From assembly GCF_019443405.1 (NCBI RefSeq), contig NZ_CP080376.1:186001-250000 (forward strand): 64,000 nucleotides of DNA, given 5' to 3'. This document shows positions 38,520 to 40,849 of the stretch, piece by piece (positions within the stretch are counted from its first letter, which is position 1; each line of letters begins with the position of its first letter). The notes under the pieces are model-generated. The model made no database searches. It was not told where the DNA came from and saw nothing but the letters and a program-made list of their open reading frames with translations. The position numbers and the translations under genes are program-made. This stretch comes from Brevundimonas sp. PAMC22021. GTDB lineage: Bacteria; Pseudomonadota; Alphaproteobacteria; Caulobacterales; Caulobacteraceae.

Positions 38520-39122
38520 GTGCGCTATCCTCCAATAGTTCAAGAGTCCGGCATAGTATTACTCGGGAGTTTCAATCCTGCTATATTTCAACCGGCATGG
38601 TTACTAAAGAACGATTTGATCTCGGGTCAAGACTTCGAAGAAGTTCAACTATCTTTGGTTCATAATGAGCTAACTGAATTTCGCATCAAGAGCATGACGC
38701 TCCGTGTGGAGCCTCAGCGGTTTCAGATTCTTACTAGGGATGAACCTTTCGTTCAGGCGCTTGATCTCGTTCTGGGGGTTTTTGCAAACCTCCTCTCGCA
38801 CACGCCGATCGCGCAGGTAGGCATAAATTACTCGGTCCACTTCGCTCTCGAGAACGCTAACCAACGTCATACGTTAGGCCGAGCATTGGCACCCTTGGAG
38901 CCGTGGGGCGAGTGGGGTCTTCAGCTAGAAACAGATGATCCGGAACGCCGGGGCGGCCTGCGAACTCTAATAATGGAAGAATCTCGTCCCGGAGATCGCC
39001 TGATTGGTCACCGCCGTGTGCATGTAGAGCCTTCGCTGCGCACCGACCTACTTGATTCAAAGTTGGTGTTCACGTCATGGTTAACGATCACTTCGAGATC
39101 GAGGAGCCTGACGCGGTGGTAG
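38520..39122 (+). pseudogene. Unrecognised protein, first gene of the island, C-terminus frameshifted
   Basis: 200 residues from GTG 38520, which has GGAG at 38509-38512. The text is VRYPPIVQESGIVLLGSFNP and AIFQPAWLLKNDLISG at the start, then a mixed fold with HTPIAQVGINYSVHF. No family name comes to mind. Near the end, at GATTCAAAG|TTGG (about 39055-39064), reading slips: the present frame gives LVFTSWLTITSRSR and stops at 39122, while the -1 frame continues KVGVHVMVNDHFEIEEPDA to 39220 and ends in an ATGA overlap with the next gene. One missing G would restore it. So the gene was about 233 residues long. Confidence 0.7.
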
Positions 39123-39220
39123 CAATGGATTGGCTGGGTGGGCGGTTCGACGCTTCCATTGCCGAGTCGAAGGCGATTATATCTGGCCTTATGAATTTCG
39201 CCGAGGGGCTGACCAAATGA
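39077..39220 (+). CDS. Displaced C-terminal fragment of the first island gene
   Basis: Reading from ATG 39077 gives 47 residues: MVNDHFEIEEPDAVVAMDWL then GGRFDASIAESKAIISGLMN then FAEGLTK. The segment makes most sense as the true C-terminus of the preceding protein (see the frameshift), because its stop shares bases with the ATG at 39217, the normal coupling in this operon. Whether it is made separately is unknown. Confidence 0.55.
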   Translation: MVNDHFEIEEPDAVVAMDWLGGRFDASIAESKAIISGLMNFAEGLTK

Positions 39221-39753
39221 GCGCAACCGCATTGCGGCTCAATGCCGACATCGAGCGAACAGACGTGAGTAGGCCGTTCGAGCTGAAATCGGCTGTTGAC
39301 CGCCAAGCTAACCTGTTCAAATTCCGGCACGAGGACGCTCTAGCTAGGTCTGGCCGTGCGGTCGCGGAAATCGTGAACACAGAGACTAGCAGTGATCCTG
39401 GGATAGACTTACCTGAGCCGCTTCAGATTAAGGACGCCCAAGAGCAGTTTATTAGTAGCCAGGAGTGGGACGGCTACGTCATTGCTGTTTATGAAGATAA
39501 GCTTCGAGGCATCATGTATCCTGTGGGGAGATCTGATCCCCAGAACGAAGAGGTAGTCGAGATACCGATGGAGTTTGTAGATGGGGACTCGGCTCGGTAT
39601 GTTGATGTAGGTTCAGTGTTTCGTTTTTCGACAGGTAAGTTGGTGCGTCGGAAACAGGTGATGCAGGGTTCGAAGGTGTACTTCCGTCGGGCTGCACGGC
39701 TTCGCACGAACCCCGGACGTGCTAGCGCGCTTGCGGATCTGTTCGCTGACTAA
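39217..39753 (+). CDS. Small beta-rich protein of unknown function, second gene of the island
   Basis: 178 residues from ATG 39217, whose ATGA overlaps the upstream stop. After a polar N-terminus comes a block with W-D-G-Y-V (EWDGYVIAVYEDKLRGIMYP), EEVVEIPMEF, VDVGSVFRFSTG and KVYFRRAARL. The spacing W-x-G ... E-I-P ... G-x-V-F-R ... F-R-R suggests a compact beta-barrel; I have a memory of similar unnamed small proteins but no name. The C-terminus overlaps the next gene by 35 bases. It belongs to the low-G+C island. Confidence 0.75.
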   Translation: MSATALRLNADIERTDVSRPFELKSAVDRQANLFKFRHEDALARSGRAVAEIVNTETSSDPGIDLPEPLQIKDAQEQFISSQEWDGYVIAVYEDKLRGIMYPVGRSDPQNEEVVEIPMEFVDGDSARYVDVGSVFRFSTGKLVRRKQVMQGSKVYFRRAARLRTNPGRASALADLFAD

Positions 39754-40849
39754 GATCAATACGCCACCTGATGCAGATGAAATCGAGGTTGCCCTACTAG
39801 GTCGCGGCCACGGAGAGTCTGTCGTAATCCACGCCCTAGATGGCACTTGGATTGTAATTGATAGCCTTAAATACGAGAACCGTGACGCTGCCCCCTTAGC
39901 TTACCTGACGCAAATGGGCGTAGGGCCGGAGGCAATACGGGTCGTGATGGCTACCCACTGGCACGACGATCACGTCGCCGGCTTGGCTCAAGTTTATAGC
40001 GTTGCCACCAACGCAGATCTCGTCTTGCCGCTTGCAATGACAACCCAAGAATTTCGCGCGTTCGCCAGCATAGCGGTAGGAAAGGATATGGGGCAGCTCT
40101 CCTCAGGCCTGACTGAGATGAGCGACCTAGCTGCAGTTCGTAAATCTCAAGCACGCCCGGCACCGATACGAGCTCAGGCATCCATGCAAATCTTCCGCGA
40201 GCGCTCGTCCTTCGGTCATCAAATCTGTCTGACGGCCGTCTCGCCAAGCGCCGCTGACGTCGAGGATTTTTTAGCAGCCATTTCGGCACCTCACATCGGA
40301 AGCCCGCTAGTTGGTCGCCTAATGCCGAAGAACCCCAACGACATATCTACTGCTTGCATCCTCTCCATGGGCGATGAGAACGTCTTGCTTGGGGCAGACC
40401 TAGAGGTCGGTGGACGCCCGGAGCGAGGGTGGCAGGCCGTGCTAACTGCTCGTTTGAACTCTGATCCTCGAGCGTCTGTCTTTAAAATCCCCCATCACGG
40501 ATCAGAGAATGCACATCATGACAGTGTCTGGTCGGAAATGCTGAACGAAGAACCCGTTTGCATCTTGGCACCCTACAATCGAGGAAGAGGAGTGCCGAAA
40601 AAGGCTGATGCAGATCGGATTCAGGCTCTCACCTCCCACGCCTACATCACGACACAGTCTCCATTCCGAAAGTATCGGGGCGTGAGTTCCTACGTCGAGA
40701 AGTCATTAGAATCTAGTGGCATAAGAGCTCAGTCCTTGCCCCGAGAAGTCGGAGTTATTCGCCTCAGAAAACGGATTAGTGATGCGAAGTGGAACGTGAC
40801 CAACTTCGGAGGTGCCGTGCACCTCAGTCAGTTCGTAGCTCGGGATTAG
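39719..40849 (+). CDS. Metallo-beta-lactamase-fold hydrolase, ComEC C-terminal-like, third gene of the island
   Basis: 376 residues from GTG 39719 (TTG 39731 is also possible). Key motifs: [11 protein letters not shown] at the first strand, [11 protein letters not shown] as the metal-binding HxHxDH, then [11 protein letters not shown] with the fourth-site Asp, and [13 protein letters not shown]. This is the order seen in the soluble MBL domain of competence protein ComEC and its stand-alone relatives, many of them in bacterial conflict islands. Its substrate (a nucleic acid or a nucleotide is likely) is not known. It overlaps the gene before it by 35 bases and the thiC 3' end by 26. Confidence 0.85.

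Follow-up and report, generated by a model that had tools for sequence, protein, structure and literature searches.

A mobile three-gene family with a ComEC-type metallo-beta-lactamase-fold hydrolase and a probable role in phage defense

BREX-related (BR) loci, among which PMC12839542 counts the Hma system described in PMC8565338, carry auxiliary nuclease effectors in their core. In the part available here, that 2026 account names HNH, HKD, PD-(D/E)XK, TOPRIM/OLD, HEPN, PIN and Schlafen as effectors; in its main text the term "MBL" is absent and "metallo" appears only in a reference title. When E. coli strains, including ECOR strains, were put through a functional selection, 21 systems emerged (PMC9519451), and the part of that paper available here names no metallo-beta-lactamase-fold (MBL) protein among them. 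The MBL domain of ComEC, in turn, is described as having Mn-dependent nuclease activity (PMC8579336). Here we describe g1-g2-MBL, a real, widespread and mobile three-gene family in which a free-standing ComEC-type MBL protein is encoded with two small partners. One copy lies in the window, the whole 64,000-nucleotide stretch of Brevundimonas sp. PAMC22021 DNA analyzed here. The literature searched yielded no paper describing the three-gene module.

In the window, a segment of low G+C content carries the module up to the end of thiC (Table 1). Its G+C content is 54.0%, against 68.6% in the remaining window, and the low-G+C block reported in an earlier sequence-only reading is therefore real; the values of 38%, 42% and 57% given there are seen in single 60-base lines, whereas whole genes in the block lie at 51-55% each. 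Homology to other genomes of the genus resumes directly after the MBL stop at 40849. Of the 29 best-matching other genomes, 28 show thiC homology from a point within 40851-40855 and the remaining one from 40870; in a longer list, where 82 of 91 genomes match, two reach 7-13 bases further left and several begin further right. The left border is the start of the alignment with L014 only, from the sole relative with the module at the same site, and there the thiC homologue adjoining the module lies within a protein set with one ThiC match. A TPP riboswitch at 42906-43014 stands upstream of the window's thiC. The final thiC codons (40824-40851) fall to the left of the homology border (40852), within the insertion, which seems to have taken the place of this gene's original end.

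Two repeats lie at the left side of the module. An inverted repeat at 38430-38496 (20-base arms, 85% complementary, 27-base spacer) marks the segment's left edge upstream of g1 and may be a regulatory site or an insertion trace. Directly to the left, an interspersed repeat of ~340-400 bases (37934-38330) has eight copies in the genome, the window's included; across the genus, 14 of 41 genomes contain a match, again counting the window's. Its 5' half is strongly conserved and its 3' half variable, and an Rfam search of it gave nothing that reached a family cut-off; it is possibly a small mobile element or a multi-copy RNA gene.

Table 1. Positions, in window coordinates, of the module, its motifs and the adjoining host gene.
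Feature	Position	Strand	Basis or remark
Transferred segment with module	38437..40851		G+C content and homology borders
g1, first part	38520..39044	+	family profile positions 4-167, from 38526
g1, last part	39056..39220	+	profile positions 167-220, another frame; stop overlaps g2 start
g2	39217..39753	+	178 aa; small, beta-rich
ComEC-type MBL-fold hydrolase	39719..40849	+	376-aa ORF; PF00753, ComEC chain 9ic4
Metal-binding motif HWHDDH, residues 80-85	39956..39973	+	alignment
Asp227 of GADLE, candidate metal ligand	40397..40399	+	aligned with ComEC LLSADIE stretch
HHG, residues 259-261, candidate metal ligand	40493..40501	+	aligned with ComEC KVPHHGS stretch
thiC, host gene at right border	40824..42851	-	ORF, presumably ThiC; TPP riboswitch upstream

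The three overlapping genes of the sequence-only reading are present on the plus strand, adjacent and ordered, with one amendment to the first. The stop of the g1 tail (39218-39220) overlaps g2 by 4 bases, and the MBL ORF begins inside the end of g2; the GTG that opens this ORF may not be the true MBL start. What had been taken for a single open first gene proved to be g1 in two frames of the same strand, with the break between ~39044 and ~39056. From its GTG start, the first frame continues to a stop at 39120-39122, with no family match in that extension. In the relative with the module at the same site (G060, source of L002 and L014, probably one contig), g1 is in one frame. The break may be either a true frame change in the window genome or a sequence error. 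Barring such an error, the window's module is probably dead or dying because g1 is broken, and it is unlikely to function. A broken MBL gene in the closest relative was also considered and rejected: one TAG lies in the aligned stretch, yet the profile alignment is stop-free, so the TAG seems to precede the conserved part, with the true start downstream.

The third gene encodes a hydrolase with the metal motifs of ComEC. The protein matches Pfam PF00753 (4.9e-9), its family profile finds ComEC chain 9ic4 as the best match among solved structures (3.8e-9), and its metal motifs agree with those of ComEC. The HxHxDH motif is intact, as had been said. Its residues His80, His82, Asp83, Asp84 and His85 do not vary across the 42 sequences aligned, of which the window's is one, and Trp81 is conserved in at least 90%.

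The two partner proteins have no convincing match to a metabolic family, so the first refuting outcome named in the sequence-only reading did not arise, and a metabolic function was rejected on this ground; one match of the g1 tail, to an isomerase model, scored 11.5 bits where the cut-off is 492 and is at chance level. Both g1 and g2 matched 0 PADLOC families even at an E value of 1, and neither profile matched a PDB sequence. None of 45 database proteins of the g1 family has a Pfam domain, and the predicted g1 structure is a confident model with no clear relative; a TATA-binding-protein-like fold is possible for it. The g2 model has a low-confidence N-terminal part and a confidently predicted barrel at residues ~77-158, which, as modeled, is probably OB-like, with OB and cold-shock type domains as the structures of reference. 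At L047:1321-3030, g2 is seemingly fused in frame behind what we take to be an FtsZ-like domain, between g1 and MBL. The same bin holds a second copy of that domain, cut by a contig end, with 96% identity across 287 residues; a chimeric assembly is therefore likely and a recent fusion possible.

Across genomes, the three genes keep company in a fixed order. An MBL alignment scan over one genome per species (84,980 species) gave at least 166 relatives, of which the best 80 were kept. In 76 of these 80 loci, g1, g2 and MBL are complete, in order and on one strand; the other four (L016, L036, L069, L079) are truncated, their contigs stopping within the module or immediately before it. The three proteins thus co-occur elsewhere, and the second refuting outcome named in the sequence-only reading, a lack of co-occurrence, did not arise either. 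With ORF starts assigned mechanically, g1 and g2 lie at most 60 bases apart in 64 of the 76 loci, and g2 and MBL in 67. On viral contigs, 14 of 18 loci, one apparent duplicate pair among them, are complete, two are cut and two hold a distant MBL only, and L094 was the single locus found when viral contigs were scanned with the g1 alignment. Profile searches of 398 genomes of the window's phylum told the same story: g1 matched in five (the window's included), all five with g2 and MBL, and g2 matched in six, five of them complete. The sixth, locus L189 (G236:C420), has g2 with no g1 in the 3.5 kb upstream, and its contig ends ~130 bases after g2. L041 has the remnant of a second copy downstream of its complete module: a piece of g1 (L041:8221-8412) that covers profile positions 5-68 and contains a stop.

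The family is broadly and sporadically distributed. Going by record titles, 20 phyla are represented among the MBL rows, 19 bacterial and one archaeal (77 of 96 rows carry a phylum), with the caveat that many rows are metagenome bins whose single placements may be wrong. On the MBL tree the phylum labels change 32 times, against a least possible 19, which fits horizontal transfer, short of proof. Closer to the window, some MBL match occurs in 11 of 150 relatives searched (the window genome, G000, included) and a full-length one in three. The module adjoins thiC in two of these three, the window genome and G060, and lies ~198 kb from thiC in the third, G020; the sporadic fixed position by thiC that had been suggested is thus sporadic, but the site is not fixed, being common to two genomes. 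One Arenicellales genome, which holds L017, has a second g1-g2-MBL module, L188 (G537:C1:3228000-3238000). Two of 72,556 plasmid records matched, from Adhaeribacter swui and Pantoea agglomerans.

In E. coli, the module is carried by prophages. Matches occur in 17 of 5426 genomes, 14 of them near-identical to ECOR29. All six contexts examined are prophages in which the module occupies the interval from antiterminator Q to holin, oriented against the phage genes on either side; those of L190, L191, L192 and L194 differ in their remaining genes. In the ECOR29 prophage the intact 2.4-kb cassette spans L190:10916-13316. The E. coli and plasmid proteins match all three profiles (g1, g2 and MBL). The cassette of E. 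coli SX45 had no DNA match among plasmids, and the MBL proteins of the window, Pantoea, L103 and ECOR29 had none among 50,697 phage records.

The family is also not wholly unrecognized or new, as had been supposed, because RefSeq already calls the E. coli g1 (WP_000143147.1) "anti-phage protein" in two records, and "hypothetical protein" in another. The coexistence of two product names suggests to us that the former is recent. A literature search by accession numbers found no paper behind it; a 2025 machine-learning defense screen in E. coli might be its source. The E. coli member may already have been tested by others.

The module recurs inside BR loci. In six of the best 80 loci (L021, L023, L041, L053, L057, L061) it lies between DUF499 and DUF1156 genes, whose relatives share its strand, with extra genes between in some. 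The arrangement is almost gapless in L057: DUF499, a ~160-aa protein, g1, g2, MBL, DUF1156 and an SNF2 helicase. L018 has just the DUF1156 relative, L056 this relative plus the ~160-aa companion, and L059 just the companion. We presumed the ~160-aa protein beside DUF499 to be DUF3780; a DUF3780 search for it gave 0 matches in 6 genomes, and likewise 0 in controls. Among 25 DUF499 genes in 37 module-bearing genomes, six lie within 10 kb of the module, against 0.12 expected under uniform placement; this test was devised once the loci were known. Nine BR-labeled loci require seven changes on the MBL tree, so the association is recurrent. The search for BR genes used one representative of each at 1e-10 and may have missed distant ones.

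Defense genes among the neighbors are in clear excess only with BR loci included. Neighbors in 27 loci (107 proteins) matched 117 PADLOC families at 1e-20, a count that is inflated in that, among the matches listed, 24 families each match the same number (4) of proteins, evidently helicases; 104 control proteins, from 27 places at least ~34 kb away on the same contigs and chosen by hand before scanning, matched nine. With BR loci set aside, 84 proteins matched 45 families at 1e-20, and among the matches listed 19 of 25 families are type I specificity models, each matching one protein, probably the same one. The nearest neighbors outside BR loci (125 proteins) matched 17 families at 1e-25, which by their names come from perhaps six or seven proteins. 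Two neighbors on each side of the best 80 loci (232 proteins) gave single matches such as PtuA, HEC-07 and PDC-S34, and two DruA. These scans count families rather than proteins with any match, so no defense-gene rate can be derived from them, and the neighbor genes follow a longest-ORF rule (at least 140 aa) by which some are likely spurious. Location in defense islands, which had been proposed as a check, is therefore visible with BR loci included but not clearly above controls outside them.

Taken together, the module probably serves defense. We read it as anti-phage because of its fixed g1-g2-MBL order in many phyla, its carriage on prophages and plasmids and its repeated placement in BR loci. 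The conflict or defense role raised by the sequence-only reading finds support in the prophage position, the BR-locus placement and the RefSeq name of the E. coli g1; neighbors outside BR loci are not clearly richer in defense genes than controls. Prophage accessory genes also serve their hosts in other ways, which counts against a defense reading, as do the differing RefSeq names, the g2 without g1 in G236 and the lack of an MBL name in the available part of PMC9519451. With somewhat more confidence than doubt, we favor a mobile three-gene anti-phage module whose effector, an MBL phosphodiesterase, cuts nucleic acid during infection; of its parts, the nuclease mechanism is less sure than the defensive role.

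Under this anti-phage reading, the three proteins would divide the work. MBL, judging from its motifs, would be the effector and cut DNA (or RNA) during infection as a metal-dependent phosphodiesterase of the kind seen in the C-terminal domain of ComEC. Its probable OB-like barrel and poorly predicted arm suggest that g2 may hold single-stranded nucleic acid or bridge the partners. Conserved, and with no other candidate for the role, g1 could sense infection or hold the enzyme inactive until it occurs. A methylase is missing from the module, so distinguishing self from non-self cannot rest on methylation of its own; discrimination might come from a phage-specific structure or event, or the infected cell might be killed abortively. 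Inside BR loci, the module would be an auxiliary effector, like the other nucleases described in PMC12839542.

Several other functions could be imagined for such a cassette. A toxin-antitoxin or addiction module, in which MBL (or g2) is toxic, g1 and/or g2 neutralize it and cells losing the cassette are killed, would suit the tight overlapping operon, the small accessory proteins and the presence on two plasmids and in prophages, and a three-gene system of toxin, partner and chaperone does occur among the defense systems of PMC9519451. We consider it unlikely: no toxin-antitoxin family appears among the Pfam, NCBIfam and PADLOC matches listed for g1, g2 and MBL, and the window keeps g2 and MBL intact beside a broken g1, which, barring a sequence error, would be costly were g1 the antitoxin. 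The enzyme might instead hydrolyze a small or modified nucleotide, removing a signal or attacking the nucleotide pool, rather than cut DNA or RNA chains. The MBL fold includes many small-molecule hydrolases, and weak NCBIfam matches connect this protein to B3 lactamases and lactonases; yet its best sequence match among solved structures is the MBL domain of ComEC, a nuclease, and the probable OB-like barrel of g2 is typical of chain binders, which makes a small substrate quite unlikely in our judgment.

The consistent Q-holin slot in E. coli raises another thought, that the cassette improves prophage fitness apart from defense, through lysis timing, counter-defense or host colonization. The same module occurs in BR loci and on plasmids, however, and in E. 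coli it runs against the flanking phage genes, so that we hold this explanation to be improbable. Its ComEC-type motifs would also befit a helper of DNA uptake or repair, a free-standing relative of the ComEC nuclease domain, but such a role is very unlikely for genes so sporadic (3 of 150 relatives, 5 of 398 genomes in the phylum) and so mobile.

The anti-phage reading can be carried further, to a proposal that we offer as speculation. The module would be a stand-alone, methylation-independent immune device of bacteria and at least one archaeal bin, in which g1 senses a phage-specific state of nucleic acid or transcription and, by way of an OB-fold adaptor, enables a ComEC-type nuclease to act; prophages would use this cassette as a weapon, plasmids would carry it as cargo and BREX-related systems would plug it in as an effector. 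The g1 fold in this proposal, as modeled, is one that we did not recognize as that of any known defense protein. If the anti-phage reading holds, a 2.4-kb cassette that occurs in E. coli prophages, within BREX-related loci and, going by record titles, across 20 phyla is an anti-phage system whose first two proteins, searched with the window's sequences, have no model in Pfam, NCBIfam or PADLOC 2.0 (2023). The nuclease domain of ComEC, known from DNA uptake, would also have been turned into a free-standing immune effector. How a cassette without a methylase spares host DNA could then be tested with the intact copies in sequenced E. coli.

The module can be compared with several known systems. 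Lamassu (LmuA), AVAST type 1 (Avs1a), the DRT-associated MBL and 6A-MBL likewise include an MBL-fold protein in a multi-gene anti-phage system, but the module's MBL scores against them are weak and at superfamily level only: 29.2 bits for LmuA, with no Lamassu partner among the module genes; 14.4 bits against a cut-off of 420 for Avs1a; and 17.4 bits against 220 for the 6A-MBL model NF058524. PHROG 28593, a phage MBL protein with no assigned function, matches residues 23-312 of the module's MBL at an E value of 1.6e-32. With the C-terminal domain of ComEC/Rec2 the enzyme shares the order and kind of metal motifs (HxxxDH, LLxxDxE, KxPHHGS) and the lack of a conserved His between motif II and the Asp. 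Unlike ComEC/Rec2, it is free-standing, at most 376 aa long and encoded with two dedicated partner genes, and the idea that it is simply a ComEC was rejected on its score of 21.2 bits against the TIGR00361 cut-off of 190.05. As for BR/Hma, none of the BR relatives sought was found in the flanks of 71 of the best 80 loci, many of these flanks being short, and the window genome has no DUF499; the likeness lies in the DUF499/DUF1156 core loci that hold the module, as BR core loci hold the auxiliary nucleases described in PMC12839542.
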